Source: Pirellula staleyi DSM 6068 (lineage in GTDB: Bacteria; Planctomycetota; Planctomycetia; Pirellulales; Pirellulaceae). Taken from it: a stretch of 64,000 nt of DNA. The DNA lies in assembly GCA_945875845.1 (NCBI GenBank), contig CAMCMB010000033.1, positions 1 to 64,000 on the forward strand, given 5' to 3'. Below the pieces are notes generated by a model, which was not told where the DNA came from, searched no databases, and worked only from the letters and a program-made list of their open reading frames with translations. Positions within the stretch are counted from its first letter, which is position 1. Each line of letters begins with the position of its first letter. Shown here piece after piece: positions 5,198 to 44,977 of the stretch. A program made the translations under genes and the position numbers.

Positions 5198-5355
5198 GGG
5201 AAGTTTGATAGCCGCACGCGTTGGCAGCCTATTGGGGGAATCGACCGACGTTGGTTCATGCGATATCATACAAGGATTGGAAACGAATTGCGCAAGATCA
5301 GCCGTTCTGATCGCGTTTCAAGGCAACTTGTCTCACCCCATTGTTCGCATCGCGT

Positions 5356-6982: not shown

Positions 6983-7164
6983 AAGCAAGCCAAAATCGAG
7001 TTCGACCGGGTAGCATGCTCAGAGCGATAGCGATAGCGCTGGGCGTGGGAAGCTTGGCAAATGGAACACGCAATTCACACGCCCTTCGTACCTTGGGGCG
7101 TGCCACAATTGTTCGTTCGAAAAGTGAGCGAAAAAATTTGCAAGATAGGATTTCGGGCGAGGAA

Positions 7165-25837: not shown

Positions 25838-28800
25838 CTATTTTTTCAGCAACGCTTCGGCTTTCGATCTCAGCGATGGATTCCTAGATGCGAGAAGCCC
25901 GTCTATCACGGACTTAGATAGCTCGCTCTTGTTGATCCGCTTGCCGTCAATCGCGTCCAATAGTCCGGCGAGGCGATCGTCATTTCGCCCTAGTGCGTCG
26001 ATTGCCAATCGACGATTGTTTGCATTGAAATCCATTATTTTTTCGTTGAACCATGTGGTAACCACCGGCAGATCGACATCGCTCAAACCACTCACAGCGC
26101 CCATTTGCAATTCACCATCCACACCCTTGGACAAGTATTTGCGCAATTGATCGAGGTGCAGTTGGGTTGGGTCCAGTGGAATGATGCGGAGCGCATCGTA
26201 CCGCGTCCCTTTCGGCACACGCTCGTCGTCCGTCATTTTGCCCGCCAGATCAAGGCAGCGTTGCCAACGCGTTAGCAAGTCTGCTTCGTTCTTCATGATC
26301 TCCTTCAAACGCGCGCGTGGCCAGTGTCCTGTTTGCGACAAGCCATTGATCACCCCACCCCCTATGACCACCGCTTGCCAATCCCGCAATGGTTGTCCTG
26401 GCAGCGGCAGGGAGGCTCGTAATAATTCGCGAAGGACCTGCGTGTCATTTTGTTTCCCGGCCGCAATGGCCAGATTCCATATCCAAGGTATGCGTCGATA
26501 CTCCTCGCTCTCGTCCATTGGCAAATCCTTGGTCAAGGCGATTAGCAACTCAGCGGCTCGACCGACATTGGACTTGATTAAGGTCATCCGTGCATCCTTG
26601 CTTTCCGTGTCGTCAAGAATTCGAGCAGCGGTCTCGGATACTGCAACGCGATCCGTGGATTGGTTCTTTTTCATGGACCGCAGAGGTTGCCCAGGCGGAA
26701 CCAAATAGAGTGCTCGCAGATCGAGAAGTGCACCCCGTATGCCTTCTGGACCGGGACGCAGGGTGAACCGCTGAACACCGGACTGCAATCGAATCGTCCC
26801 AATTTTCTTTTGCAAATAGTTAGCCCAAGTGATGGTCGAGTCGGCAATCCCTGTGATTCGCTGATCACCGCACTCCAGAACAAAACTATTGCCAGCCGAG
26901 GAAGCGTCGCAAGCCCAGTCCATCCAGACATCGAACTCGGTCCCCTCCGCCAACTCGACGTTCCACAGGATATAGTCTTCGTTGACATTCCACATCCCAA
27001 CATTCTGGTACGGTTCTTCAAACGCAATGGTCGTACCGTATAGCTCCGCCACTTGAGCCGATAGAACCGCCACTTGATTCATGGGCACCACTGTTGCGGG
27101 TGTGTTGCCCGGAAAAACCCTTCGACTCCCTCGCCAAGTATCGAGGTAGGCGAGGATGTCCGACATGTCCTGTTTCGACAAAACCTTTTCTAGTCCTTCC
27201 GGCATTAAGCTCAATCGATTGCTCATCAATTGCTCTAAGTCGACGCGAGCAAACGATTCATCTTTGGCATCGGGGCCTCGCAGCGTCACACTCGTCTTGG
27301 TTTCGGACAACAGAAGCCCTGTGACCGACCGACCGGAGTCCGTTCGCGCTAGGTACGCGATATAACGGTTGTCCAGGTTGCGATTGGGATCGAGAATCTC
27401 TTGAAGCAAGAATTCATGGGACTTGGATGCGACAGCCATCAAATCCGGGCCGACGGCATACCCCTCTTCACCGAGCCGATGGCAAGTGCCGCAGTTCTTT
27501 TTGAACAGCTCTTTACCCCGTCCTGAATTTCCGGAAATTCGAAGTGCTTGGCGGTACTCATCGAGAACATTCTTGCGGTCTGAATCAATCTTGCCAGCCA
27601 AGAGCATCTCGGATCTGGAGACGATGTCGGCGGTCGGATGAGTTAGCAAGCGTTGACGACGCATCGCGTTTAAGTCTGCGCTGCCGACTACCCCCGACTC
27701 CATCGCATCAAGCAATACGACAATCCACTCATCGCGAGCCAGGAGAAGATCGAGGACGTGTGACTTCATCGCGGGCGAATAGCTTCGCCAAAGGCCGAGG
27801 ATCGTATTGGCGGCTTGTTCGCCTGCGACGCGCGCCAGTCCCGTAGCCGCTGCCATCTGAATGGGTGTCGAGTTTTTAGGACCAAGCAATTCGCGGAGTG
27901 TGATCTGGTCGCTTTCCGAATCATGGATTCGTCTCCCTAACAAACCGATGGTCTTGAGTCGAACGGATTCGTCGATCTCCACGTTCTCGGATATTCGTCT
28001 CCCTTGGATTAGGTACGATTCGAGTTTCGAAAGCGCGCTAGCACTTGCATTGGCAGTTCCTCGATTGCGAATCTGCTCAAGCGCCTCGACAAAGGTAGCT
28101 ACCAAAGCCCAATTCGCATCTCTCGCATCTTCGCTCTTGGCTGTGCAAACAAAATCAACCAGTTTGGTGAGTGTTTCTTCCTCACCCATGGCAATACCAC
28201 TCGGGATTAATCGCTTGAGCAAAGTACTGGACTTCGATGGTGCCACACTTGGGTCCACGATCCTCTCCACTACATCGGCGATGTTCCCTGGATTCAAACT
28301 GCTCAAGAAAGCCTGAACCAAAAACGAATCGTCCGTATGTTGCAGAGCAAGATTTGCGAGCGATGTCGAAGCGAGCCGACCTTGCCAATACCCCAAACTG
28401 AATGCGGCTTGCAAACGCACTTGCGCATCCTCATCTTGCGTCAGCTGAATCACATGCGACAGAATCTGCGGATTGGGGCTGTCGACCTCCCTGCCAATTT
28501 TATCTGCAATTCGCAGCGCGTGACGTCGCACGCCAGGATGCTTGTCGCTCAAGGCAAATTCAATGTCTTGATCCCGAATTCCATTGAGTAGATCTAACGT
28601 ACACAGCGCATGCAACCTCGCTTCGGGGCGAGCATTTGTTTTTAATAACTCTTGCAACAACGGCACGGCTTCGACATGTGAATTCCAGACCAACAGTTGA
28701 GTCGCCATGTCGCGTTGCCATCCGCTCGGGCTGTCGAGAGCGGCTACCAACCCAGCAGGATCGAGCCTGTCCAGCCTGGGCCATTTTAATGGCGTAGCAT

Positions 28801-31405
28801 CGTTGGGTCGCACGCGGTAGATGCGTCCCATCGAATGCCCCGCCCGTACATCCAGCTTCGCCAGGTCAGCCTCAGGAATCCAGTGCGGATGTTCAATGAC
28901 AAAGCGGTACATATCGACAACCCACAAGGAGCCATCGGGGGCTGTTCTGGCTTGAACCGGACGAAACCAAGTATCAGTCGAACCCAAAAATTCCGATTTT
29001 CCTTCCAACGATCCACGTTTACCTGCGAATGTTGATTGTTTTGGACTCAATTTCAAACGATGAACGACAAGATTGACGGGCTCGCAGGTGTACGTGCTGT
29101 CTGCATACTCGCTACCGAGCAACGCATCGCGGTAAATGCCGATACCACATGCAGCTGTCGCTTGACCGCCCGTGCCGGATAGGCTGAATAACTGCATCTT
29201 GTCACTGCCAGGGAAAACCATGTTTGCCTCGGCGTTGGCTGGTACGTGCGATTGACGAGGTGGTGCCGAAACATATTCGTTTCTCGCAATGTAGGTTTCG
29301 GATAATGGCAAATGAAAGCAGTATTCGCTGTTGCTGCACCCAAACCAATTCCCCCAATCATCGCGAACCCGACCCTGTTGCGTTCTCCCTGTGGCGGCTT
29401 CGATGAGTCCCAAATCGGGCTGAATCCGAAAGTCGCGGTCGCCAAGCACAAACTCGCGCACCGCATTTTCCTGGCTCCTAGATGAGATACCTTGGGCGCG
29501 AATCGTACCACCGAACAAACCGCAGGAACCGTACAACCAACCATCGAGTCCAACCTCGAGGCTGTTCACGCGGGCCTGAAAATTCTCTGTCCCAAAACCA
29601 CTATACAGTTTCTTGACAATATCCGCCCGTTGATCTCCGTCGGTATCCTCGGCGTACAGAATATCCGGGGCAGCACATACCAGTACTCCTTTTCGCCACG
29701 CGGTAACGCCTGTCGGAAATGGAATCGAGTCGAGGAAGATACTCGACTTATCCAATTGCCCATCTCCCTTGGTTGACTCCAAAAGACGAACACGACCACC
29801 AGGCTGGAATTTGCCATCTAAGCCAGTCGGGTAGTCGAACATCTCAGCCACCCAGACTTTGCCGTCCGGGCCAAAACTAACTGCGACAGGCGAAGTCACC
29901 AAAGGTTCGGAGACGACAAGCTCGGCGCGTAGACCTTCCGGAACGCGGAGTGTTTTCAAAGATTGGATGGGCGACTTTGGCGGACTGCCCAATGTCTTTC
30001 CCGGTTCCGCATCGGGTGAGAACGATTCCGCAAGGTGGTTCTTGACCACAGATACGATTTTGTTCTCAAGGCCGGGCGCGAATTGCGATGGCTGATCGTA
30101 ATAGATCATCGCTCCCGCTCCTTCGTAACCTCCTTCGGAAAGGATTCGTTCGCTCGGAATATAGCAAGGAGACGCGTTGCTGTAAGCGCATAACCAAAGA
30201 CGTTGCGAATCGAGTTCGCTTTTGAGTCGCGCTGCGTAATCGACCACGACTTCTCCCGCAAGAAAGACGATCGCCAAGGAACTGCCGAACGACCAAGTTT
30301 GGACGCAATAGTCGATTTGGGTCCGGAGCGACTCACCTCGCTCCAGTTTTTGCAGTTGAACCCTGGCATGATACCCAACGGGCGTATCGAGTTTGCCAGT
30401 CGCTTCCAACTGCTCGCGCGTTGGCGGCGTTGCTAGATCAAGCTTGATCCGAGTCCGTTGGATCGTAAGCGGACCAGAAATGGCACGCATCGGCGTTTTC
30501 AAAACACGTTCGACTTCGGAAGCGATCTCCATACCTTGTTGGGAGGCGAGATCAAACCGATCTCCCGTGACGCCCGTCGAGGGATTTTGGTCCGCACCAC
30601 ATCCGATGGAGATAAGCGCAACGGCGCCTGGATAAAGGCGCTCAATGTGCTCTTGCGCATAGCCTGCCCAGTCGCCCCCTATCAAGTTCTCCGACAGGGT
30701 TACGCAATGGCAAGCATAATTCGCATGAATTGCTCGAATGCGTCCCTCCAAATCGCGAACGACCAACACGGGAACATCATGATCCACGGGTCCGGTCGCG
30801 GATCGGCGGTTTTTTGCAAAACCTGCAGAACCTATGCCAAAATGAAGCGTCGAGGGGACTCGATTCTTCAATGCTTCTGATGCGACCGCGATCAGTTTAT
30901 CGGTGAACTCGCGCGTGTAGCGATCGATATGTTTTTGGTCCGCCTCGGGAATCGGCATTCCAAAGATATTGGGTGCGCATCCGTTGATCATGGGTGCCGT
31001 ATGCGAATGCGATGCAGCGATCGACACGTTTTCCATGGCGATTCCCGTCAATTGGCTCAGCCGCTGTGCCACTTCTTGTGTTATCTCATCAGGCACACCT
31101 AGATTGTCGACTGTCAACAAGACAGCCGGTGGCTGACCCATACTGTCCACTGCGATCGCTTTGGCCCAAATTCTTTGACGAACTCCAATAGACTCTTGCT
31201 TCCGCGAAAGAAAACCATTTTGGCGAATCGGGTAATCCGGAGTGATGTCTGCGCGTGCGACACCGACGTTGTAATGTGTTGATTGCGTTTGCGAGAGTGC
31301 ACTGTTTTCGTGCAACCAACAGAGGGACGCAAGCATAAAAGCGAGCATAGGTATTGTTCGTCGAACTGCCCGTGTTCTGACCAAATGATCCAATAAAGCC
31401 ATCAA
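25838..31405 (-). CDS. Giant secreted fusion: ceramidase-like, PVC propeller, HEAT, cytochrome c
   Basis: 1855 residues with a signal peptide (MLAFMLASLCWLHENSALS). Residues about 45-455 match neutral/alkaline ceramidase N-terminal domains (VGVARADITPDYP, AASHSHTAPMING, YACHCVTLSENLIGGDW). Residues about 483-860 are a PVC-type dehydrogenase-like beta-propeller (FGPDGKVWVAEMFDYPTG, APDGSLWVVDMYRF). HEAT-like helices follow (about 870-1260). One cytochrome c site, CGTCH near 1305, lies within GKELFKKN and is followed by VGPDLMAVASKSHEFLLQEILD. A beta-sandwich (about 1440-1560) and a helical tail close the protein. It is probably periplasmic, combining amide or lipid-amide hydrolysis with redox chemistry. 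The individual domain families are known in planctomycetes; this full combination I do not recall. Confidence 0.85.
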   Translation of the reverse strand: MMALLDHLVRTRAVRRTIPMLAFMLASLCWLHENSALSQTQSTHYNVGVARADITPDYPIRQNGFLSRKQESIGVRQRIWAKAIAVDSMGQPPAVLLTVDNLGVPDEITQEVAQRLSQLTGIAMENVSIAASHSHTAPMINGCAPNIFGMPIPEADQKHIDRYTREFTDKLIAVASEALKNRVPSTLHFGIGSAGFAKNRRSATGPVDHDVPVLVVRDLEGRIRAIHANYACHCVTLSENLIGGDWAGYAQEHIERLYPGAVALISIGCGADQNPSTGVTGDRFDLASQQGMEIASEVERVLKTPMRAISGPLTIQRTRIKLDLATPPTREQLEATGKLDTPVGYHARVQLQKLERGESLRTQIDYCVQTWSFGSSLAIVFLAGEVVVDYAARLKSELDSQRLWLCAYSNASPCYIPSERILSEGGYEGAGAMIYYDQPSQFAPGLENKIVSVVKNHLAESFSPDAEPGKTLGSPPKSPIQSLKTLRVPEGLRAELVVSEPLVTSPVAVSFGPDGKVWVAEMFDYPTGLDGKFQPGGRVRLLESTKGDGQLDKSSIFLDSIPFPTGVTAWRKGVLVCAAPDILYAEDTDGDQRADIVKKLYSGFGTENFQARVNSLEVGLDGWLYGSCGLFGGTIRAQGISSRSQENAVREFVLGDRDFRIQPDLGLIEAATGRTQQGRVRDDWGNWFGCSNSEYCFHLPLSETYIARNEYVSAPPRQSHVPANAEANMVFPGSDKMQLFSLSGTGGQATAACGIGIYRDALLGSEYADSTYTCEPVNLVVHRLKLSPKQSTFAGKRGSLEGKSEFLGSTDTWFRPVQARTAPDGSLWVVDMYRFVIEHPHWIPEADLAKLDVRAGHSMGRIYRVRPNDATPLKWPRLDRLDPAGLVAALDSPSGWQRDMATQLLVWNSHVEAVPLLQELLKTNARPEARLHALCTLDLLNGIRDQDIEFALSDKHPGVRRHALRIADKIGREVDSPNPQILSHVIQLTQDEDAQVRLQAAFSLGYWQGRLASTSLANLALQHTDDSFLVQAFLSSLNPGNIADVVERIVDPSVAPSKSSTLLKRLIPSGIAMGEEETLTKLVDFVCTAKSEDARDANWALVATFVEALEQIRNRGTANASASALSKLESYLIQGRRISENVEIDESVRLKTIGLLGRRIHDSESDQITLRELLGPKNSTPIQMAAATGLARVAGEQAANTILGLWRSYSPAMKSHVLDLLLARDEWIVVLLDAMESGVVGSADLNAMRRQRLLTHPTADIVSRSEMLLAGKIDSDRKNVLDEYRQALRISGNSGRGKELFKKNCGTCHRLGEEGYAVGPDLMAVASKSHEFLLQEILDPNRNLDNRYIAYLARTDSGRSVTGLLLSETKTSVTLRGPDAKDESFARVDLEQLMSNRLSLMPEGLEKVLSKQDMSDILAYLDTWRGSRRVFPGNTPATVVPMNQVAVLSAQVAELYGTTIAFEEPYQNVGMWNVNEDYILWNVELAEGTEFDVWMDWACDASSAGNSFVLECGDQRITGIADSTITWANYLQKKIGTIRLQSGVQRFTLRPGPEGIRGALLDLRALYLVPPGQPLRSMKKNQSTDRVAVSETAARILDDTESKDARMTLIKSNVGRAAELLIALTKDLPMDESEEYRRIPWIWNLAIAAGKQNDTQVLRELLRASLPLPGQPLRDWQAVVIGGGVINGLSQTGHWPRARLKEIMKNEADLLTRWQRCLDLAGKMTDDERVPKGTRYDALRIIPLDPTQLHLDQLRKYLSKGVDGELQMGAVSGLSDVDLPVVTTWFNEKIMDFNANNRRLAIDALGRNDDRLAGLLDAIDGKRINKSELSKSVIDGLLASRNPSLRSKAEALLKK

Positions 31406-31566
31406 CCTGCGCCTCGATCGAATAGGGTAAGACTGTGAAGTGTTGGAGCTAGGACGATTATGATATCACGCAGGATGAGTCTTCGCGAACTTGGGCGTTG
31501 TTTGCTCAGTGACAGCAAACTCCTCGCAGCGGCAATCCAATTCAGCTAGAATGTTCACATCGTTTG

Positions 31567-32592
31567 ATGGCTGATGAAAATTGGTATTCGCTGAGGTGCT
31601 ATGTCGTGCTGTGTTCAATGTTGGTAGGTTCTTGGTGGTTCCGAAATGTGGGAATGGTTTGCTCGTTCGCCTTTTTGGCCATCCCACCCGGTTTTGTTTT
31701 TGCACAAGACCCACAAACCTCTAAGGGAGGCACGATTTCGGTAACTGGCTCACAGGATGTTGTGCTCATTCCCATCAAGCTACGGCTCACGCTGTTGGTC
31801 AGAGTCGAGAGTCGTGATAGCAAGAGGGCGCTTCAGACGTTTCAAGAACATCGAGAACGAGTCACAAACGAGTTGAGTGGCCTAGGAGCCATCCCAAGTT
31901 CCATCGAGTTCTCAAAACCGATGATCAGCGTTGGGATTCCGGGAGTGGATGATCCCGAATTTGCCCGAAAGCAAATTCGCCAGCAGTCGGCGCAAATGAG
32001 GAATCTCAATCCGCAGCGCGCACGTTTGCCGGCCTCCGATTCGGATGAGGAACCGGAACTTCCTACCATTTACACTGCCTCATCGAAACTAACCGCCGAA
32101 TGGGCTCTCTCAGAGAATTCAGAGGATGACAATCTACTGCTTCCTTCCACCATTCGCTCCGCAATTCAACAGAACGATTTCAAAGGCAAGAATCTCAAGG
32201 TTGTTCTGAATCCAGAGGAGCAGCAATTGATTTTGCCCTTGATGGGTAGCATGAGTTACTCAATCGCCAATAGGGTCCCAGAAGTTCAATTGGTTTATGT
32301 AGGACGTTTGTCGGAAGCACAAGAGGAAAACGCCATGAAAGAAGCGATCCAGAAAGGGCAAGCGCAAGCTGCCATGCTGGCGCGAGCGATGGGGAAACGC
32401 GTTGGGGGTGTTCGCTCCATCTCATCTACATCTTCGTTGCAATTTCCGAGCACGATGCGAAATTACGAGATCGGTGCCAACGGACAAATGGTGGTTGGCA
32501 ACTCCCGCAGGGATGCTCGCGAATCGATCCACGAAGATGCAAGCAATCTCATTTTGCCAGTCGCCATTTCAATGCAGTTCGAAATGGAGTAA
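31567..32592 (+). CDS. Secreted SIMPL-domain (DUF541) protein
   Basis: 341 residues with a hydrophobic N-terminus and signal cleavage likely near VFAQ. The C-terminal part has the SIMPL pattern: AMKEAIQKGQAQAAMLARAM followed by GKRVGGVRSIS. The N-terminal half has TISVTGSQDVVL and a long polar insertion (about 130-190) rich in Gln, Arg and Glu. SIMPL proteins are periplasmic, poorly understood, and some affect outer-membrane stress. The ATG at 31567 is preferred over a TTG one codon before. It is divergent from the ceramidase fusion, with about 160 bases between starts. Confidence 0.72.
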   Translation: MADENWYSLRCYVVLCSMLVGSWWFRNVGMVCSFAFLAIPPGFVFAQDPQTSKGGTISVTGSQDVVLIPIKLRLTLLVRVESRDSKRALQTFQEHRERVTNELSGLGAIPSSIEFSKPMISVGIPGVDDPEFARKQIRQQSAQMRNLNPQRARLPASDSDEEPELPTIYTASSKLTAEWALSENSEDDNLLLPSTIRSAIQQNDFKGKNLKVVLNPEEQQLILPLMGSMSYSIANRVPEVQLVYVGRLSEAQEENAMKEAIQKGQAQAAMLARAMGKRVGGVRSISSTSSLQFPSTMRNYEIGANGQMVVGNSRRDARESIHEDASNLILPVAISMQFEME

Positions 32593-32596
32593 CAGG

Positions 32597-34558
32597 TTAC
32601 TCCGGATTGACTTCGAGAATCGGTTCAAATTCACCATCCGAACGCGAAAACCGACCCGCATAGAATTCGGTATTCAGGTGCAAACCCATGACCGTTCGCC
32701 GCGTACACGGGGTTAGTGAACGATAGAAAACCCATTGATCGCGATTGACCTGTACGCGATAGGCTTCTGCAACATTGCGAGGCTGAATTTGCAATTCCTC
32801 GGCGATTGTCAATTGTCGCCAAGTGAACGCTTGCGGTCGTTCGTTACCTCGCAACGCCATGACCAGAGGACTATACAGGTTCTTGGACTGCGTACTGCTT
32901 TGTAAAAACAGCGTTGAGTCGTTGAAGCCCATTTTGGCGTTGCTCGGCGAACGACGCCACTCCGGCATTGCAACGGGCAAAAGCAATGCTGCGGTTTGTT
33001 CCTCATTTCCGGATCGAACCAATTTGCCTTCGGTCGTTTTGGGCTCAGAATGAAGACGGATATCGTTCGGAGTCGTCCATAGCGATTCAATGGACCAATC
33101 GTCAGACTCTTCGGCAATCAATGCGTCGGCAAAATAGACAATACCTTCGTCTCGCATGAGCATGACTTGGCGCTGGATTTTGCAAACGTCTTCGACAGCG
33201 CACTCGAGTTCTAAATAGTCGACATCGTCATCCGAAAACCAACAAACCTCTTGCCAGGAAACATCGATAGGCACAGGTTGCTGTTTTCGAAGCAGCTTGA
33301 TATCCCAATCGCCGCTAAGTACCCGTTGTCCATCTTGTCCAAGTACATCCAACCAGACGACATCGCTTGAGAAATCGACGGCAACTCGGCACCCTCGATC
33401 TCGCCAAGATCGCCGCATTGTCACAATTGAGTTCTTTTCCCAGTAGTGACTGTGCTTTGGCATCAGTACATCATTCGTTACGTCCTTGCGAAGCTTGGAC
33501 GGCTTCGTTTCGAGAGCATTGCCGATCGAATCGGGTAATGCACAAGCAGTTGCTAATTTGAGCTTCTTGTTTTCACCTGCCAATTGATTGAGGGCGATCC
33601 AAAAATCGACATCGAGAGTCGTGTCCTCGCGATCGAATAATAACTGTCGGCCCTCCGCATCGCAAAGGGCGAGCGTGGCGATGGCGAGTTTTCCGATTGC
33701 CTTTCGCTGAGGCGGGTACCACTTGCGAGCTCCAACTTCATCGGCAGACCACCGACATCGAATGATACAGGCAAGAAGCGAACGAAGATCTTGACCACCC
33801 CGTAACAGGAAGCTTTGCGAATCATCTGCGGATTCCTCTAACAGCAAAGCGATTCGATTGAGTGTTTCGCTAACGATGCGGTCTTTTCCGCCGAGATGCG
33901 AAAGTTGCTTGGCGAGTGCAAGAGGCACTTCGCATGACCAGACGATCCAAGGGAATAGACCGTCGGTCGGGCCTTGCTCCCAAGCCCGATCCACTTGCGT
34001 CAACGCGCATTGCAAAACTTCCAGCCAGAGCGATGGCGAAATGCTTCTGCCAACGTCTGGAAGTGCGTGGATCCACCCCGCGCAAACGAGAGCAACATAG
34101 GGATCGTGCCCGGATTTGGGCAATTGTTGAGATATCCACTTGCCTATCTTCGACGCAGCCGCGACTTGGTCAGCCGTTGCGACAAGGTCCTTTGAAGACT
34201 TCCCCTTGTTGCTAGACTTGCTTCTCGAGGTTTTTCCATTGGCAGAAGCCACCGTGGATGCAACGCCGAACGCCTCTACCAAATCATTGAGAAACTCGGG
34301 ATGGCTATGGCTTTCGACTTCCCAAACGCCAGTTCCCCACAGCATGGCCCTAAGATAAGCGTCTGGTAAAACCTTGGCTGCTTTGGTTTTACCCTGCGAT
34401 TCTCGAACTGGAAGCGATGACTGAAGCATCGCCACGTTCTCTTCGCATAACTGTTTTAGCCATGTGCTCGCGTTAACTTGCGATTCAGAAGCGTCCGATT
34501 TGTTGATTTGCCGGGCGCGATGTTTGGGCTTTACCCAGTCCATAGGTCTCTCGTCCAC
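32597..34558 (-). CDS. Uncharacterised protein with helical and beta-rich halves
   Basis: 653 residues without a signal peptide. Residues about 40-300 are helical and include SKIGKWISQQLPKSGHDPYV and LVCAGWIHALPD, and a Ser/Lys-rich stretch near 107-125. Residues about 380-640 are beta-rich (VWLDVLGQDGQRVL, YLELECAVEDVCKIQRQV, GLHLNTEFYAGRF). A helical domain followed by a beta-sandwich recalls polysaccharide-lyase-like proteins, but no catalytic His/Tyr motif was found. It converges with the SIMPL gene (stops 5 bases apart). A start at 34543 is possible. Probably a planctomycete-restricted family. Confidence 0.68.
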   Translation of the reverse strand: MDERPMDWVKPKHRARQINKSDASESQVNASTWLKQLCEENVAMLQSSLPVRESQGKTKAAKVLPDAYLRAMLWGTGVWEVESHSHPEFLNDLVEAFGVASTVASANGKTSRSKSSNKGKSSKDLVATADQVAAASKIGKWISQQLPKSGHDPYVALVCAGWIHALPDVGRSISPSLWLEVLQCALTQVDRAWEQGPTDGLFPWIVWSCEVPLALAKQLSHLGGKDRIVSETLNRIALLLEESADDSQSFLLRGGQDLRSLLACIIRCRWSADEVGARKWYPPQRKAIGKLAIATLALCDAEGRQLLFDREDTTLDVDFWIALNQLAGENKKLKLATACALPDSIGNALETKPSKLRKDVTNDVLMPKHSHYWEKNSIVTMRRSWRDRGCRVAVDFSSDVVWLDVLGQDGQRVLSGDWDIKLLRKQQPVPIDVSWQEVCWFSDDDVDYLELECAVEDVCKIQRQVMLMRDEGIVYFADALIAEESDDWSIESLWTTPNDIRLHSEPKTTEGKLVRSGNEEQTAALLLPVAMPEWRRSPSNAKMGFNDSTLFLQSSTQSKNLYSPLVMALRGNERPQAFTWRQLTIAEELQIQPRNVAEAYRVQVNRDQWVFYRSLTPCTRRTVMGLHLNTEFYAGRFSRSDGEFEPILEVNPE

Positions 34559-34785
34559 GTTTGCGATTAATGATATGATTTGATTCGCGTCTGCAGTGTC
34601 GAATATTCGACCGCGCAGCGAACGAACGCCAATTGTTGTTCCAACTTTTCAAGATGCAAGCGCCTAAAACAGGTTTCTTAAGAACACTTTTTTCATTTTT
34701 AAAAATTCTCATTTTGGGTATGGACATTTACCGTGTTCGTCGGCTCAACATTGACTGCCATCCCAAGCATAGGAGATCAGGAACC

Positions 34786-35634
34786 ATGAACCATTTTCAA
34801 TCCACACTTCGGCCCTTCTTGACGATTTTTACCATTCACCTGTTGTCTATCGGCTTGGCGTCCATTTGTCGAGCCGACGACGATACCTGGCTTAACCCAG
34901 CTTTGCTCAAGAAACGAATTGCAGACGCATTCGAAGAACCAAAGGACTGTAAATCGCTGCATCGCGAGAACCGAATATGGATAAATCGAGACGAACAAGT
35001 GGTCATACTGGACGGATACATTGTGCAGCGAGAAGTGCCACTGGAATTGTTCGCCTGCCCGGCTGGTAGCAAAGAACACGAGGCTGTCGTGGCTGTTCTT
35101 GCAAGGCCGCAATTGGTGCACGCAGGCTTGCTTGCGATCAACGCAAAGCCGGGTAGTCCCGCTTCGTTCGAACCATTCAAGCCCGCGAGCGGAACAACCG
35201 TGCGTATCTATGCTCTTTGGCTGGACAAAGAGAATAAAGCTCAAGGCACGCTTGCACAAAACTGGATTCGTCGAGTCGACACCAAGAAATCCATGCCATG
35301 GGATTGGGTATTTGCAGGAAGCAAGATCTACAAAGATGAAGACGGGAAAGAACACTATTTGGGCGATAGTGGGGAATTGATCTCGGTCTCCAACTTCTCA
35401 ACGTCGACGTTGGATTTGGCAGTTCAAAGCGATCAGTCCAACGCCAATCTGATGTTTGAAGCATTTACCGATCGAATTCCTAAGCGAAACACGCCGATTC
35501 GTTTAGTTCTGTCGCTGACGGATGAAGCCCCCTACAGCGGAGACAACGACAAATCGAAAGAGCCCAAGCATCTGAGCGAAAAAATTCCGGAAAGCATCAT
35601 GAAATACTTGGTAACCAAGAAAAAAGAGCAATAG
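34786..35634 (+). CDS. Secreted YdjY-like protein
   Basis: 282 residues. The start at 34786 is preceded by AGGAGATCAGG, a good ribosome-binding site, which makes it preferable to upstream starts at 34633. A signal peptide (FLTIFTIHLLSIGLASICRA) is present. The rest is reminiscent of planctomycete YdjY-domain proteins: RENRIWINRDEQVVILDGYIV, CPAGSKEHEAVVAV and VYALWLDKENK-like strands, and WVFAGSKIYKDEDGKEHYLG. No cofactor motif is seen. The role is unknown. Confidence 0.75.
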   Translation: MNHFQSTLRPFLTIFTIHLLSIGLASICRADDDTWLNPALLKKRIADAFEEPKDCKSLHRENRIWINRDEQVVILDGYIVQREVPLELFACPAGSKEHEAVVAVLARPQLVHAGLLAINAKPGSPASFEPFKPASGTTVRIYALWLDKENKAQGTLAQNWIRRVDTKKSMPWDWVFAGSKIYKDEDGKEHYLGDSGELISVSNFSTSTLDLAVQSDQSNANLMFEAFTDRIPKRNTPIRLVLSLTDEAPYSGDNDKSKEPKHLSEKIPESIMKYLVTKKKEQ

Positions 35635-35980
35635 GGCATTTGCGGGTAACTGGCCTTTATCCTACGCCTGAAGCCACCAATTGTTGGACTCCGTCGGGAC
35701 ATGCCCGAATGTGGCAGAAAATCCGTGTCACGTTTACGACTTTCAAGCGACAGTAATGCACTTGCTGGGATAAACCCAGCGGCATTTTCGATTCATGCCA
35801 TCTGGCTTTATGCCAGTGGTGGTTTGACCTTCGCCCTAGCTTGAAGGTAACGATCCCCAGATGAAAATAACGGGGTCAGGCCTCTTTGATTGGCATCAGA
35901 CATCATGGAGCAGATTCAACTACCATGCAATTGACCGGAGGTATCAAGACTCAAGATCGGTACAGGAAAACAAAATCGAT

Positions 35981-36047
35981 CCTGGGGTTTCGTTCGCCTT
36001 CGCTCACTTCACCCCAGGCTATCCAATACCGTCGCTTTGCGACTAAA
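35981..36047. repeat. Dispersed copy of the transposase-associated array unit
   Basis: Begins CCTGGGGTTTCGTTCGCCTT, closes the hairpin with ACCCCAGG, and ends with GTCGCTTTGCGAC. It differs from the units at 53.7-54.4 kb and 55.1 kb by only a few bases in the loop and flank. Confidence 0.85.
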
Positions 36048-36176
36048 CCCGGCAGCGGAGTCGATGGAGGGAAGGACGTCAACCTCCGATCATCCCAAGG
36101 TGGTCATCGCTTGTCACGCAAGCAAGATGTCTTGTTTTTAGTCCCATTTGGGTGAAGCTCGCGGGTGCGCGCTGCA

Positions 36177-36208
36177 GTGACATGCCTGTGACATGCCTGT
36201 GACATGCT
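36177..36208. repeat. 11-base tandem repeat, three copies
   Basis: GTGACATGCCT repeats at 36177 and 36188, with a partial third copy at 36199. It lies outside any gene. Confidence 0.8.
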
Positions 36209-36613
36209 GGGTCATGACGTGACGACAGGGCTCGCTATTTCACACAATTCCGGCACCGACGGAAGTGCCTGACTCATCACCGAAATAAATAATCCGCCCG
36301 TGAGCATGTTGAATACCACTGGACTTAACCGTCTACGGAAGCAATCAAGCCGTCGAGAGATCCAAGAGTTTCTCCCACTTGGCACGTTCTATGCTCTTCT
36401 TGTCCAGCACTATCGGTACTTTGGGACGCGCGGAGAGCCTGAGCCATCGAAGAGATAACGCATCGGGAAACCAATGCAAACAGTGATCAAAAGATCGTCC
36501 GCTTAAGGACATTGCCATTTTTAGGAAAATCAACCGACGCCGGCAGTGACATATCGGGCAATCGCGATCCAAGTGCATTACGACGTTTGCAACAAGGGAA
36601 GGTTTTTGTGCTC

Positions 36614-37567
36614 ATGATTCAGTTGTTCCCCAAGGTCGTTAGGAATTTACTCTTGCGAATTAGCGACACCGAAGTGTCTTTTATAAGGCGTGGGTTTGAG
36701 CCATCGAGTTTGCAGCCTCATCTAGAAGAAATAGGTAGATCATTCCTTTTTGGCTACCATCTCGCTCTCGATGACGCATCCGTTTTTTCGCATGGTAGTT
36801 CGATCGCGAATGGTGACCCAATCTATCAGGGGTTTGTATTCGAAGGTGCGGCGATGGCATTCGCGATAACCGATTCGCTCTCGCTGAGAAAGCGAAACCG
36901 GTGGCAACTGTTTCTTGACGGCATGGGTGCTCCACATCGTTATGTAGTGCATGTGGGGCTTGGTTGGGCGTACGCGAGAATTCCATGGTATCGACGAAAT
37001 CCTGAGAAATACTTGGATCGCTTCGATCCTTTGCTGAGGTGGCTTGTACTCGACGGTTACGGCTTTCATGAAGGCTTTTTCAACTGGGAGAAATGGCTTT
37101 CGTCATCCAACCTTCAACCTCCTTGGAGCGACCAAGGAAAGCGAGTTTTCGATCAAGGGCTTGGACGCAGCCTATGGTTTGTCAAAGGAGCAAATGTAGC
37201 CAAAATCGCGGCGGTAATTGAGTCTCTGTGTCCATCGCGTCGTCCTGATTTTTGGAGCGGAATCGGGCTTGCCGCTTCCTATGCGGGAGATGCGAGTTGC
37301 GACGAGATCGAATCCTTGGTCGAAGCGAGCGGTAGCAGTCGAGACTATTTAGCCCAGGGCGTTACCTTTGGCGCCGAAGCCAGAGAGCTCGCCGACATAC
37401 AGGCGGAACATACCGATCGCATCTGCAAGATCGTTTGCGACATGTCGGCTTCCGAAGCCGCTGAACTGACTCGCACAGCCAAACCAACGTTTCCATGTAA
37501 GCGTTCTGACTATGAAACTTGGCGATCGAATATTCGAGAGTCCCTAAGAAGCCGCGTGACAACATGA
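36614..37567 (+). CDS. DUF1702-family protein, first gene of the enediyne-like cassette
   Basis: 317 residues, cytosolic. The sequence follows the DUF1702 pattern: VSFIRRGFE near the start, SFLFGYHLALDD, FVFEGAAMAFAITDSL, MGAPHRYVVHVGLGWAYARIP and FDPLLRWLVLDGYGFHEGFF. The function of the family is unknown. From memory its genes sit with UnbV/UnbU genes in enediyne-type clusters (E3-like); that mapping should be verified. The ATG at 36614 is preferred to 36512 because it matches the usual family start. Its stop overlaps the next gene's start as ATGA, indicating translational coupling with UnbV. Confidence 0.85.
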   Translation: MIQLFPKVVRNLLLRISDTEVSFIRRGFEPSSLQPHLEEIGRSFLFGYHLALDDASVFSHGSSIANGDPIYQGFVFEGAAMAFAITDSLSLRKRNRWQLFLDGMGAPHRYVVHVGLGWAYARIPWYRRNPEKYLDRFDPLLRWLVLDGYGFHEGFFNWEKWLSSSNLQPPWSDQGKRVFDQGLGRSLWFVKGANVAKIAAVIESLCPSRRPDFWSGIGLAASYAGDASCDEIESLVEASGSSRDYLAQGVTFGAEARELADIQAEHTDRICKIVCDMSASEAAELTRTAKPTFPCKRSDYETWRSNIRESLRSRVTT

Positions 37568-39660
37568 GCAATACTATGTCCAAAACCATGGCAACAAACC
37601 GCCGCGCTCAATTTTTGGGTTTCATCTTGGTGGCAACGTGTTACTTCTTTGCCCGCGAACCCTCAATCAGCCAGGGTGAGCGAAAAGAACTGGCATCCAA
37701 ACTGCACTTTGACCGTTTCGACCTGGGTGTCGAAAAATTTGCTCTGAACGGGCTGAAATCCAAGCGAGCGGTTCATCCGAGCTTAGACCGCATTTCGGCG
37801 TGGATAGGTGGAACAGGCGCTGCGGCGACTCTTTGCGATCTCGATCTTGACGGATTAGACAACGACTTGATCTTGGTCGACACACGGGTCGATCGAATTG
37901 TTGTCATGCCGGTACCCGGCGATGAAATCCATAGCAAACCACGATACGAAGCCTTTGCACTGGATGTTCGCGATCTTCCGATGAATGCAAATACGATGTC
38001 ACCCACGGGCTCGCTCGTAGGTGACTTCAACGAAGATGGGCAAGCGGATGTATTGGTTTACTTTTGGGGACGCACGCCAGTGCTTTTTCTAAAGCAAACT
38101 CATCAGACGCAAGCGAGCCAGCTTGGGTCATCGCAATTTTTCCCGATAGAACTTGTGCCTGAGCTCGTCGGCACGAGCGATGGTCGTTGGTACACACACG
38201 CGGCTACTCAAGCCGATTTCGATGGCGATGGCCATCTCGATTTGATGATCGGCAATTTCTTTCAAGATGGGGCCGACATCCTGAACGAACATGGTACGGG
38301 CATTGCAACGGTGATGCATGAAGGCAAATCCCGAGCGAAGAACGGCGGTGGTGCCAAGCTGTTCCGCTGGCTTTCCGCCTCCGCCGGCAAAGAACCGACG
38401 GTTGTGTACTCAGACCAAAGCTCTGTCCTTGAAAAACATTGTGGAAAGGGTTGGGTCTTGGCCGCCGGAGCTGCCGATCTCGATCGTGACGGGTTGCCTG
38501 AGTTGTATATCGGTCACGACTTTGGTCCCGATCGGCTACTGCATAATCGATCCCAGCCGGGACATTTGGAGTTCGGGCTATGCGAAGGAGTTCGTACCTT
38601 TACCACTCCGCGATCCTTTGTGTTGGGCCGGGACTCATTCAAGGGTATGGGAGTTGGTTTCGGTGATGTCAACGGCGACGGTTTGCTCGACATCTTTGTC
38701 AGCAATATTGCCGACGAATGGGCCCTCCAAGAGAGTCATTTTCTGTGGGTTAGTACAGGGAATATTGATGATTTCAAGCACAACCGTGCACCTTATGAGC
38801 AAAAGAGCGAACCGTACGGAGTCTCGCGGAGTGGTTGGGGTTGGGATGCCGTCCTGGTGGATCTTGATAATGATGGACGACTCGAAGCGATCCAGGCAAC
38901 TGGGTTTGCCAAGGGCGTTGTTACCCAAGATTCCAAGCTGTCGTGGATTGACCGCATGTTGTTCTCGGCCGGATTTCTTCAACACGGCATCAACCGTTGG
39001 GCAGAACTGCAAGCCGTGGGGACGACAAACGATCGACTTATTAACGACCCGCGGGCTTGGCCTAAAATACAGACTCCTACGGCGACCCTAAGCGGTTACG
39101 ACAATAACCCGATCTATGTTTCGTCGGCTTCAGGTCGATACGTAGATATATCCGCCGACATTGGCCTTGGAGATCCGTTTAATACCAGGGGTATAGCCGT
39201 CGCCGATACCGATGGAAACGGTTCGATGGACTTCGTTTATGCGAATCAGTGGGAACCTTCGGTTTTCTTTCGCAACTCCACCGCAAACCATAACAAATCA
39301 CTTTCACTGCGCCTTGTGCTTCCTCTGGACGACGAAGTTCCTTTCGAGATCGATCCAAGTGCAGAGTCAGTAGGTAGCTTGGCCATTGGAGCAACGGCCA
39401 CGATTAAGCGTGAACCGGAAACGAATCCCGTCTCAGGAACTGCCCAACGAACGGGACTGGTTTCGGTGGCCGAAGTCCTATCGGGCATCGGCCATTCGGG
39501 ACATAGCTCACAAGAAATTCATTTTGGTCTAGGTGAATATCCAAACGCGACCATCGATGTTGAGCTTCGATGGAGAACCAGGAAAGGAGACTTGGTCTCG
39601 CGAACCGTTTCTATAGCCCCTGGTCGTCACACAATCTTGCTCGGTACTTCAAGCAAATAG
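37564..39660 (+). CDS. UnbV-type FG-GAP/ASPIC protein (enediyne E4-like)
   Basis: 698 residues. A signal or anchor (AQFLGFILVATCYFFA) is followed by FG-GAP/VCBS repeats: DLDLDGLDNDLIL, DFNEDGQADVLVYFW, DFDGDGHLDLMIGNFF, DLDRDGLPELYIGHDFG, DVNGDGLLDIFVSNI, DLDNDGRLEAIQAT, DTDGNGSMDFVYA. A C-terminal ASPIC/UnbV domain has GSLAIGATATIKRE and SSQEIHFGLGEYPNATIDV. Family members are encoded beside enediyne polyketide synthases, where their role is undefined. It starts at 37564 by a 4-base overlap with the DUF1702 gene and ends 8 bases before the UnbU gene. Confidence 0.9.
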   Translation: MSNTMSKTMATNRRAQFLGFILVATCYFFAREPSISQGERKELASKLHFDRFDLGVEKFALNGLKSKRAVHPSLDRISAWIGGTGAAATLCDLDLDGLDNDLILVDTRVDRIVVMPVPGDEIHSKPRYEAFALDVRDLPMNANTMSPTGSLVGDFNEDGQADVLVYFWGRTPVLFLKQTHQTQASQLGSSQFFPIELVPELVGTSDGRWYTHAATQADFDGDGHLDLMIGNFFQDGADILNEHGTGIATVMHEGKSRAKNGGGAKLFRWLSASAGKEPTVVYSDQSSVLEKHCGKGWVLAAGAADLDRDGLPELYIGHDFGPDRLLHNRSQPGHLEFGLCEGVRTFTTPRSFVLGRDSFKGMGVGFGDVNGDGLLDIFVSNIADEWALQESHFLWVSTGNIDDFKHNRAPYEQKSEPYGVSRSGWGWDAVLVDLDNDGRLEAIQATGFAKGVVTQDSKLSWIDRMLFSAGFLQHGINRWAELQAVGTTNDRLINDPRAWPKIQTPTATLSGYDNNPIYVSSASGRYVDISADIGLGDPFNTRGIAVADTDGNGSMDFVYANQWEPSVFFRNSTANHNKSLSLRLVLPLDDEVPFEIDPSAESVGSLAIGATATIKREPETNPVSGTAQRTGLVSVAEVLSGIGHSGHSSQEIHFGLGEYPNATIDVELRWRTRKGDLVSRTVSIAPGRHTILLGTSSK

Positions 39661-39668
39661 GTTTGTAC

Positions 39669-40748
39669 ATGATTCAAGCATCCAACACGATTCAAGCATC
39701 AAGCAATCCCTCGATATCGCGTAATCCCACGGTATCGCTTAATCCCGCGGTATCGCTTAATCCCACGGTATCGCTGTACCCAAATCGCAATGCGCATCTT
39801 CGATTGTTTGCGCTCTGGTACTTTGCAATTTTGATGATTGCCTGGAACATAGCTGGGCACACCTTTCTTGGGTTTGAGCAATCATGGGCGATGCCTTTCG
39901 TGGCTATTCTTTCCGCTTGTTTAACACAGATAGTGCTGGAATGGGTTGACGCTCGCTCGCTCGGTCGCAAACCTCGATTCAGCGGCTCTTGGTTGAGCTT
40001 TGTCAACTTTCTGCCCCCGGCCATGATCTCCGGATTCGCCTGTGCCATGCTGCTCTTTCCCAACGAGCGATTGGGACCGATCGTCTTTGCCTCCGTCCTT
40101 TCGATCGCGTCCAAAGTGTTGTTTCGCATCAGGCTTAGCAACGGTTCCGTCACCCATTTTCTCAATCCATCCAACTTTGGGATTGTCGTAACGTTGCTTC
40201 TGTTTTCGGACGTGGGGCAGGCGCCGCCCTATCAATTTACCGAGAACATTACAGGTTTCTGGCATTGGGCGTTACCAGCCGCAATCTTAGCCACCGGCAT
40301 CGTTGTTCATGGATTTGCAACTGGACGTTTGACGTTATGCATCGCCTGGCTGTTGGGATTCGTCGTCCAGGGTGTTTTTCGAGCGTGGCTAGCTGGCAAC
40401 CCATGGTATGTGCCGCTAATGCCCATGTCGAGCGCTGGCTTTATCCTATTCACGCTTTACATGATTCCAGATCCGGCTACCACACCTATCGTGAAAGGCC
40501 GTCAAGTCGCATTCGGTGTCAGTGTTGCCATCGTTTATGCGGCGCTGCAACTTTTTCACATCGTCTTTGGACTCTTCCTGGCTCTGATTGCGGTGTGTGC
40601 CGTTCGCGGATTATGCATCGCCATTGCAAGCGCGATGAGCAAAGCGAAAACAAAGAGCCAACCGATCACCCGCGTTTCCATCCCCACGGCAAGGCCTGCT
40701 TTTCCCGTTGTCGAGAAAATCGCAGTGCTCGAGGAAGTCAGAGCTTAG
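39669..40748 (+). CDS. UnbU-type membrane protein (enediyne E5-like)
   Basis: 359 residues with eight or more hydrophobic segments. After a repetitive N-terminus (about residues 13-36, four NPxVSL-like hexapeptides encoded by 18-base DNA repeats), the family core starts: RLFALWYFAILMIAWNIAGH, CLTQIVLEWVDARS, SWLSFVNFLPPAMISGFACAM, and the diagnostic NGSVTHFLNPSNFGIVVTLL. MSSAGFILFTLYMIPDPATTP is also typical. UnbU (E5) proteins belong to the enediyne core neighbourhood and resemble RnfD-like membrane proteins; their role is not established. The gene starts 8 bases after UnbV. Confidence 0.9.
   Translation: MIQASNTIQASSNPSISRNPTVSLNPAVSLNPTVSLYPNRNAHLRLFALWYFAILMIAWNIAGHTFLGFEQSWAMPFVAILSACLTQIVLEWVDARSLGRKPRFSGSWLSFVNFLPPAMISGFACAMLLFPNERLGPIVFASVLSIASKVLFRIRLSNGSVTHFLNPSNFGIVVTLLLFSDVGQAPPYQFTENITGFWHWALPAAILATGIVVHGFATGRLTLCIAWLLGFVVQGVFRAWLAGNPWYVPLMPMSSAGFILFTLYMIPDPATTPIVKGRQVAFGVSVAIVYAALQLFHIVFGLFLALIAVCAVRGLCIAIASAMSKAKTKSQPITRVSIPTARPAFPVVEKIAVLEEVRA
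39705..39776 (+). repeat. Four 18-base tandem repeats inside the UnbU gene
   Basis: Units AATCCCTCGATATCGCGT, then AATCCCACGGTATCGCTT, AATCCCGCGGTATCGCTT and AATCCCACGGTATCGCTG. They encode hexapeptides of the type Asn-Pro-X-Val/Ile-Ser-Leu/Arg. As the unit is a multiple of three, copy number could vary without breaking the frame. Confidence 0.9.
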
Positions 40749-40751
40749 TAC

Positions 40752-41654
40752 ATGCCATTGCTTATAGCCCCTGGAAAAATCATGCAGAAAACACTAACTC
40801 AAACGTGCTATCGCCCACGAATCACGTTTCAAGATACGAATGTCGTTGGAAACGTCTATTTCCTCACGTTTTTTCGCTGGCAAGCGGAATGCCGCGACCT
40901 GTGGCTCCGAGAAAACGATCCCGAACTTTGGCACTCCATTCGCCGAGGTGAATCGCCTTTGATCGTCACTCATTGGTCGACACGTTTCGATGACCCGGTT
41001 GGAGCGACGATTGGCGATGACGTAAGTGTGTCGATGGAATTCGATGAGGATGAGCACCAATACTCAGCTTCCGCCACGATCGAGAGAATCACCGAGAATG
41101 GGGCAGAGACGATCGGCAAGGGCAGCATGCGTTTTCAAACTTCGTCGGCTTATAGCCATGCTCACAATGAGTCGCTGAGTGGACCGTTTTACGAGTTCAC
41201 AACCATGTGTCCCCGAATATCCGTTCTGAATCCACTCGATCTCTTCGCCTGGCAAGGAAAGTGTCGCGAACTATTTTTGGAGGACCATGTACCTAAGTCG
41301 CTCGGTCGAGTCGCAAATCGGCAGCTTGCCCTTCAAACAACATTTGCCTCCGTGGAGCTTCATCAGACTCCGCCCCTCTTGGACGAGGTGCGTGTCGAGA
41401 TGCGTCTTGACGAGATCAAGTGTGGGCAGTTAGGCGTGCGGTTTGACTATTTTGCATTGTCCGAGAACGAGCAAGTAGCCTTCGCAACGGGCCATCAGCG
41501 TATGAGCAGCAAGCGCTATGTTGGATTAGGGATTGTTCCATGCCCCCTTCCAACGGACATGCTGCTTGCCCTGCAATCGTTTACAGACTCCAAGCGAATG
41601 ATAGACAAAATTGAAAACATCATTGAATTCGCCCACAAGGAGGATTTGAGATAG
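40752..41654 (+). CDS. Tandem hot-dog thioesterase, enediyne TEBC-like
   Basis: 300 residues with two hot-dog halves. Half one (about 12-145) has ITFQDTNVVGNVYFLTFFRW followed by QAECRDLWL. Half two (about 150-290) repeats the pattern as LNPLDLFAWQGKCRELFLED and LALQTTFASVEL. The first half strongly resembles CalE7/DynE7-type enediyne thioesterases (TEBC, E10), which release the polyene from the synthase and are about 150 residues with one hot dog. A fused double form is unusual. Substrate is unknown. It is the last gene of the cassette and starts 3 bases after the UnbU stop. Confidence 0.85.
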   Translation: MPLLIAPGKIMQKTLTQTCYRPRITFQDTNVVGNVYFLTFFRWQAECRDLWLRENDPELWHSIRRGESPLIVTHWSTRFDDPVGATIGDDVSVSMEFDEDEHQYSASATIERITENGAETIGKGSMRFQTSSAYSHAHNESLSGPFYEFTTMCPRISVLNPLDLFAWQGKCRELFLEDHVPKSLGRVANRQLALQTTFASVELHQTPPLLDEVRVEMRLDEIKCGQLGVRFDYFALSENEQVAFATGHQRMSSKRYVGLGIVPCPLPTDMLLALQSFTDSKRMIDKIENIIEFAHKEDLR

Positions 41655-44556: not shown

Positions 44557-44977
44557 AAATGTTTAGCCTGTTATAGTCCATGGGGCCAAGATTGAGGCCA
44601 CACAAGGAACATCTTTGCAATGTCGAATGGATTGAAAATATGGGAGGGCGAGGTTCCTGCCGAGCTAAAGACGCAATGGATTCGGCAGGAGCCTCACCCT
44701 CCCAAGCTATGAATGGATTCGGCAGGAGCCTCACCCTCCCAAGCTATGAATGGGTTCGGCAGGAGCCTCACCCTCCCAAGCAATGAATGGGTTCGGCAGG
44801 AGCCTCACCCTCCCAAGCAATGAATGGATTCGGCAAAGTCGAGGAAAACATGTTTAGAGGGTTGGCCTCACCCTTCCGCTGACCTCTATATCTACCTCCA
44901 ATTTCCTTGTGTATTATGTCACATACCCGAATGGGTACTCCTAATAATTTCTAATTCACCAATCTCACTCACGAAAC
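44557..44977. other. Intergenic region carrying a tandem repeat
   Basis: Between the LOG pseudogene and the DUF1080 gene there is no coding sequence that can be supported. The centre is occupied by the 37-base tandem repeat, and an A/T-rich stretch (44870-44975) precedes the DUF1080 start. Confidence 0.7.
44641..44835. repeat. 37-base tandem array of the GGCAGGAGCC family
   Basis: The first half-site is inverted (GGGAGGGCGAGGTTCCTGCC). Then TTCGGCAGGAGCCTCACC occurs at 44681, 44718, 44755 and 44792, with a truncated TTCGGCA at 44829: strictly 37 bases apart, units nearly identical. There are no unique spacers, so it is not a CRISPR array. Confidence 0.9.

Follow-up and report, generated by a model that had tools for sequence, protein, structure and literature searches.

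What do the companion genes of an enediyne polyketide synthase (PKS) do in a genome from which the synthase itself is absent? The question is raised by a stretch of 64,000 nucleotides from Pirellula staleyi DSM 6068 (GCA_945875845.1, contig CAMCMB010000033.1, positions 1 to 64,000; hereafter the window), in which four consecutive plus-strand genes (Table 1) encode a DUF1702 protein (E3-like), UnbV (E4-like), UnbU (E5-like) and a thioesterase (E10-like), without the iterative enediyne synthase (PKSE, or E). To our knowledge, no function has been assigned to E3, E4 or E5. On balance, we lean modestly towards reading this cassette as a functional, PKSE-free derivative of an enediyne PKS cassette (E3-E4-E5-E10 without E) that acts on an acyl chain supplied in trans. 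PMC5181780 gives E3/E4/E5/E/E10 as the genes that every enediyne cluster shares.

A cassette with the gene order of an enediyne cluster

The first-pass annotation of the window had read the four genes in this order, with spacings of -4, 8 and 3 bases between consecutive genes, and both the coordinates and the Pfam and homology matches agree with it. The UnbV open reading frame (ORF) matches the Pfam families FG-GAP_3 (E 2.3e-24) and UnbV_ASPIC (E 1.8e-7), and the thioesterase ORF matches 4HBT_2 (E 7.1e-7); the NCBIfam profiles gave no assignment for the DUF1702, UnbV and UnbU ORFs. The AlphaFold2 model of the DUF1702 protein is all-helical (mean pLDDT 92.9). Against the Pfam family NQR2_RnfD, the window UnbU stays below threshold (E 0.093; 12.5 bits, cut-off 27.7); its identity is settled because 34 of 37 aligned relatives match PF03116 at E<=0.1 (best 1.5e-10) and because the RnfD-like protein encoded at the same position of the C-1027 cluster is 44.8% identical to it over 268 aa (40.8% by tblastn). 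Furthermore, a UnbU profile matches the RnfD structure 8ahx_D (E 4.8e-4), and a simple scan finds seven hydrophobic stretches. In RnfD/NqrB proteins, an S/T-G-A-T motif carries the covalent FMN; [ST]GA[TS] is present in none of the UnbU sequences compared.

In the C-1027 cluster of Streptomyces globisporus, the gene order is DUF1702-DUF1702-CRTAC1-RnfD-like-type I PKS. The window resembles this type of cassette in that its DUF1702, UnbV (CRTAC1) and RnfD-like genes follow one another in the same order and in that its thioesterase is homologous to E10. The two C-1027 DUF1702 proteins are 34 and 33% identical to that of the window, and the CRTAC1 protein is 38% identical to UnbV; the earlier assignment of DUF1702 as E3-type fits its place in this cluster. 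Unlike the C-1027-type cassette, the window contains one DUF1702 gene rather than two, lacks a PKSE, has a double-hotdog thioesterase gene directly after that of UnbU, and has a secreted PEP-CTERM neighbor. Judged by sequence, the four cassette genes are real, and E3, E4 and E5 types stand in enediyne-cassette order.

The synthase is absent from the genome

The genome to which the window belongs (7.0 Mb, 149 contigs, 99.95% complete) contains five ketosynthase (KS) matches, all of them single-domain ORFs of 413-458 aa whose surroundings, by eye, resemble fatty-acid synthesis or isolated genes. No PKSE was found in it: a Verrucomicrobia PKSE query reached at best 107.5 bits at 33% identity. In three other genomes, which carry a PKSE, the same query scored between 946 bits, where the match was split over contigs, and 2078 bits (54% identity); its own genome gave 4380 bits. 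That no PKSE lies nearby, as first annotated, thus extends to the whole genome, while the accompanying suggestion of a synthase encoded elsewhere meets only single-domain KS genes; by these searches, the synthase is absent from the window genome rather than encoded elsewhere in it. The genomes of the other PKSE-less loci described below gave at best 105-291 bits at 31-35% identity, and no PKSE was found in any of them, the PKSE-bearing control of this search (G606) scoring 2089 bits. Nor was one found in G904 (best 100 bits), whose cassette (L163) is itself cut. A genome of the window's family, from another genus (G439), is PKSE-bearing.

Relatives with and without the synthase

A contig scan yielded 240 DUF1702 relatives, the best 80 of which were fetched and searched for a PKSE by tblastn with two PKSE queries. 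A match of at least 400 bits was present in 65 of these 80 stretches. L089 carries a 66% PKSE fragment at the end of its stretch and L094 a fragment of 58 aa, together with fragmentary UnbV and UnbU matches; weak KS matches only were obtained in L025, L078, L084 and L096, and no PKSE match in L023, L024, L031, L040, L048, L057, L059, L068 and L092, several of which are short contigs. DUF1702, UnbV and UnbU genes occur together in 67 stretches, and among these a clear PKSE is missing only from L023, L024, L025, L057 and L094; L057 is a contig edge whose PKSE sits on another contig. In L023, L024 and L025, the thioesterase gene follows directly after that of UnbU, the usual order in the other relatives being DUF1702-UnbV-UnbU-PKSE-thioesterase, with variations.

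DUF1702 carriers numbered 6 of 392 genomes in a phylum sample, 15 of 397 in a class sample and 4 of 199 in a family sample (the samples overlap, and each count includes the window genome). Twelve class loci were fetched: six are PKSE-bearing (L153-L158, one family), five are without PKSE (L159, L160, L161, L162, L164), and L163 ends inside UnbV. Some contigs were met twice (L159 is L025, L154 is L037, and G578:C11 is L023). The PKSE-less loci hence number ten (the window, L023, L024, L025, L106, L013, L160, L161, L162 and L164); these planctomycete loci are drawn from three family groups, and none has a PKSE between E5 and E10.

PMC10308959 and PMC4247773 report enediyne-type KS outside Actinobacteria, and PMC8725005 a heptaene made by PKSE plus thioesterase. 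The terms enediyne, polyene and PKSE are absent from the text of the planctomycete-metabolite review PMC12078418, and a search of the open-licence literature found, among the papers listed, none on such a cassette without its synthase.

Phylogeny points to loss of the synthase and to transfer

In a tree built from the concatenated E3, E4 and E5 sequences (42 rows), the window, L024, L025, L106, L160, L161 and L162 form a single clade (100/100), all seven members of which have a double-hotdog thioesterase. Around this clade lie PKSE-bearing Verrucomicrobia and methanotroph rows, among which it is nested and whose cassettes (L042, L045, L069, L088; L051, L052, L080) are its nearest relatives. 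Unlike the window, these have the PKSE between UnbU and thioesterase, or their contig ends inside the PKSE, and their thioesterases are single hotdogs where present in the stretch; a PEP-CTERM protein is encoded just upstream in L051, L052 and L088. L164 is drawn with Verrucomicrobia at 87/72 in the free tree, which requires three changes of PKSE state; joining L164 to the seven instead raises the log-likelihood by 12 units (p-AU 0.755), a grouping that was defined once the tree was known. L013 falls with the PKSE-bearing L107 (97/84; 99/89 in a further tree). Since PKSE-less cassettes lie inside PKSE-bearing ones, the PKSE-less state is derived, by loss; we infer at least two losses, and two when L164 joins the seven. 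The earlier proposal of an older, independent function is thereby not supported as to age, while the planctomycete clade always lacking PKSE, which had been named beforehand as the sign of an independent role, is what we found: every member examined is without PKSE.

The window cassette branches nearer to L160 and L161 (100/99), members of another family, than to L106, which comes from the window's genus. Between the window and L106, a KS gene is 83% identical and the DUF1702 proteins are 45% identical. This discord between cassette tree and host kinship suggests that the PKSE-free cassette moved horizontally, one clade spanning two families.

A remodelled thioesterase

The window thioesterase matches the structures of SgcE10 (4i4j, E 6.6e-22), CalE7 (2w3x, E 2.3e-19) and DynE7 (2xem, E 6e-19). 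Each of its halves is alike to these enzymes in sequence; the three PDB entries are single-domain, whereas the window enzyme consists of two fused domains plus a tail. The TEBC-like (E10) assignment of the first-pass annotation is thus right as to family and needs correction as to architecture, the tandem double hotdog of 300 aa having gone unnoticed. Such a tandem is present in eight of the ten PKSE-less loci (the window, L023, L024, L025, L106, L160, L161, L162), and a single hotdog in L164 and L013. All ten PKSE-less enzymes carry a C-terminal extension of ~20-35 residues, and by eye these extensions are mutually related; most of the 25 PKSE-bearing thioesterases aligned are without one, and short separate tails are seen in L058, L074, L086 and L102. 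L164 joins both domain clades in the thioesterase tree (83/75), the branching inside that group being undecided, as expected if PKSE loss and the tail preceded the duplication; L013 is a long, unplaced branch.

The single-domain E10/TEBC pattern combines ETN..GNVY and WQGRCRE in one domain, a pattern from which the window enzyme departs. Its N domain has kept the TN..GNVY loop and the WQ..CR helix, and its C domain has lost the loop and kept the helix (WQGKCRE). In L160 and L161, the N domain lacks the Arg of the WQ..CR helix, so that the two halves are complementary; in L013, Ser replaces Asn. In CalE7 numbering, these residues are Asn19 and Arg37, and the title of PDB entry 9ccr (EspE7 R35A mutant) points to the same Arg. 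In the model of the window enzyme, which is of moderate confidence (mean pLDDT 75.1), the extension is a helix. Foldseek searches with this model returned SgcE10, DynE7, CalE7 and EspE7 at the top, followed by double-hotdog enzymes such as FatA and ACOT7. With FatA/FatB, ACOT7 and ACOT12 (ranks 38-50) the window enzyme has the two-hotdog architecture in common, a likeness of architecture only at 7-13% identity and TM-scores of ~0.27-0.38. PMC3107222 reports that recognition by CalE7 is directed at the polyene, not at the carrier domain, so that a change of acyl supplier is plausible.

Selection on the cassette genes

The ratio of non-synonymous to synonymous substitution rates (dN/dS) was calculated by NG86, distant pairs being mostly saturated in dS and without value. 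Between the window and L024, it is 0.07 for UnbU, 0.13 for the thioesterase, 0.21 for UnbV and 0.29 for DUF1702, with 0.53 for the secreted PEP-CTERM protein; three genes upstream of the cassette gave 0.12-0.23 between the window and L023. Apart from one stop in L023, the frames are open in the window and nine further loci, and the cassette genes are intact despite divergence to 45-72% identity. The cassette genes are under purifying selection.

Alignment columns with conservation of 95% or more across 32 PKSE-bearing rows were counted as invariant and scored in nine PKSE-less rows. For DUF1702, 0-4 of 48 such columns are changed, and for UnbU 0-2 of 50 (48 where the sequence is cut). Leaving out each PKSE-bearing row in turn gave medians of 2-2.5% and maxima of 17% (DUF1702), 5.8% (UnbU) and 13% (UnbV). 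By this alignment measure, E3 and E5 are constrained about as tightly as with the synthase, and UnbV is less constrained than in the majority of PKSE-bearing rows.

A secreted neighbor

The four-gene system first described stands as to its genes and had left out the secreted PEP-CTERM protein encoded in the neighborhood (Table 1). This protein matches PF07589 with 20.7 bits, a score equal to the cut-off, and TIGR02595 with 18.4 bits (cut-off 16). By blastp linkage among 84 loci (the window, 79 of the 80 scanned loci, L012, L013, L106 and L107), a secreted, mostly PEP-CTERM family lies beside the cassette in 19, and in none of the 38 Actinomycetota loci; outside Actinomycetota, it also accompanies PKSE-bearing cassettes. 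An iterated profile matches 15 distinct loci (L057 and L012 being one locus) and finds L155, L156 and L162, all outside its training set, at 172, 184 and 99 bits. Six of the ten PKSE-less loci match it (the window, L023, L024, L025, L162, L013); L106 and L164 have a PEP-CTERM-like neighbor by eye, without profile support. Among the 199 family genomes there were three strong matches (E below 1e-40), all in cassette carriers and all in the training alignment. The best match in a cassette-free genome was 2.6e-15 (G428), and 49 of the 199 had some match at 1e-3, many just to the C-terminal portion that bears the PEP-CTERM tail. This search scored no more than 12 candidates per genome and is hence no proof of absence.

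Other features of the window and of related loci

Table 1. Cassette genes, thioesterase domains and secreted neighbor, in window coordinates
Feature	Position	Strand	Basis
DUF1702 (E3-like), 317 aa	36614..37567	+	Pfam PF08012, E 3.7e-93
UnbV (E4-like), FG-GAP repeats and UnbV_ASPIC domain, 698 aa	37564..39660	+	Pfam
UnbU (E5-like), RnfD/NqrB-type membrane protein, 359 aa	39669..40748	+	homology to C-1027 gene, RnfD profile
Thioesterase (E10-like), 300 aa, tandem double hotdog and C-terminal helix	40752..41654	+	PDB matches, alignment, model
N-terminal hotdog domain of thioesterase, residues 15-139	40794..41168	+	alignment and model
C-terminal hotdog domain (residues 161-263) and tail helix (281-299) of thioesterase	41232..41648	+	alignment and model
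Secreted PEP-CTERM protein, 269 aa	41779..42588	+	system membership inferred from neighborhood

The 5' end of the UnbU gene contains an 18-base tandem repeat (3.9 copies, 39705-39775) encoding NPTVS-type amino-acid repeats, in whose number L023 and L024 differ from the window. Between the window (31564-41654) and L023, dS of the cassette genes (0.12-0.22) is below that of two of the three upstream genes (0.20-0.73), which would fit a recent exchange of the cassette between these strains. The window also encodes a second FG-GAP and UnbV_ASPIC protein (731 aa, 19596-21788), remote from the cassette UnbV (86 bits), and a single ORF of 1855 aa (25838-31405) joining a ceramidase-type domain, DUF7133, HEAT repeats and cytochrome c; an intergenic 37-base tandem repeat lies at 44675-44835 (4.4 copies, 97% matches).

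Other arrangements occur among the relatives. L028 and L029 show DUF1702-PKSE-thioesterase, with neither UnbV nor UnbU in the stretch obtained, that of L029 starting just before DUF1702, and L014 (10026-10994), L078, L084, L092 and L096 have DUF1702 genes singly or as two or three in tandem, without UnbV or UnbU; that of L014 adjoins a non-ribosomal peptide synthetase gene and, by eye, a FAD-dependent halogenase-like gene. L026, L034, L045 and L052 are PKSE-bearing loci outside Actinomycetota whose flanks, by eye, hold ordinary genes and no tailoring enzymes, so that their product may be a simple polyene and not an enediyne. In L161, an AraC-family regulator gene (4699-5523) adjoins the PKSE-less thioesterase gene, and similar regulators also occur in the C-1027 cluster and, by eye, next to some cassettes that have a PKSE. 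In L086, a gene at 7035-7703, upstream of the cyanobacterial PKSE cassette, encodes a DUF6073 protein (E 4.1e-94), and DUF6073 matches fall within a long secreted-type protein in L107.

Discussion

If the cassette is a functional PKSE-free derivative, its thioesterase would formerly have cleaved a polyene off the carrier domain of PKSE, would have gained its tail after loss of the synthase and then duplicated into a double hotdog, an architecture also found in plant acyl-ACP (acyl carrier protein) and mammalian acyl-CoA thioesterases, and would now probably free an acyl chain supplied in trans on the fatty-acid ACP of the cell itself or as a CoA ester. The soluble, helical DUF1702 protein, the RnfD-like membrane protein UnbU and UnbV, an FG-GAP protein and presumed beta-propeller on the outer side, would keep a step of processing or holding the hydrophobic chain, as in PKSE clusters, and the secreted PEP-CTERM protein would act outside; we infer both substrate and chemistry of the cassette. 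Several observations weigh against this picture. No acyl supplier linked to the cassette was found, and the KS-ACP pair beside the cassette in one genus is present in the window's genus regardless of the cassette. L160 and L161 have no secreted neighbor in the fetched stretch, and carriers are rare in the family sample. The UnbU gene of L023 (13056-14099) contains an in-frame stop, either a sequencing error in this metagenome-assembled genome or a broken copy, and 4-12 of 120 invariant UnbV columns are changed in PKSE-less rows, above most PKSE-bearing rows (90th percentile 4.1%); these changes may reflect a shifted function or partial relaxation.

The stop in L023, the UnbV changes and the patchy distribution would also be expected of a decaying remnant in which the genes left over from PKSE loss are drifting; we consider this quite unlikely, as dN/dS values of 0.07-0.29 speak against drift, as do the otherwise open frames, the preserved E3 and E5 invariants, and the integrity of genes at 45-72% identity. 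It is hardly conceivable that the organism has a PKSE that is missing from the assembly or lies on a distant contig: the assembly is in 149 contigs, and in G003 cassette and PKSE do sit on separate contigs, apparently through an assembly break, but the genome is 99.95% complete, and UnbU and thioesterase genes lie 3 bases apart, in a junction that recurs in relatives none of which has a PKSE by search. Partnership with a type I PKS other than PKSE might be considered where a PKSE-less genome encodes one (31-35% identity; G335, G507, G669, G790, G840, G882). Yet it is hard to hold for the window genome with its single-domain KS ORFs, or for G578, G582/G593 and G897, where the PKSE query gave only ~105-107 bits on short frames, and no conserved PKS gene was found beside the PKSE-less cassettes; this renders it very improbable.

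Handling of a polyene or enediyne-like compound that neighbors produce, by uptake, detoxification or storage, and not of one from the cell itself, would account for membrane and secreted components, for a self-contained unit that is transferred horizontally, and for the want of a conserved acyl supplier beside it. However, no transporter or resistance gene is conserved with the cassette in the window clade, and the remodelled thioesterase suggests that the substrate is a thioester and therefore intracellular; we judge this explanation unlikely. A more far-reaching proposal, rather doubtful in our view, takes E3-E4-E5-E10 as an autonomous module for lipid processing that moves horizontally. In it, the thioesterase, as a FatB-like double hotdog with a single composite site (N-domain Asn, C-domain Arg), would act on acyl chains from ordinary fatty-acid synthesis, and UnbU and UnbV would together oxidize the chain as a redox system in the membrane; if true, the early steps of enediyne core formation, so far without explanation, would rest on the same chemistry.

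A planctomycete lineage has kept, and apparently passed on, E3-E4-E5-E10 after loss of the synthase, and these genes are thus worth keeping without PKSE, which suggests that they serve a function independent of it. The PKSE-free cassette offers a simpler setting in which the role of the helper genes can be tested. For genome mining it means that E3, E4 or E5 alone can call a false enediyne cluster.

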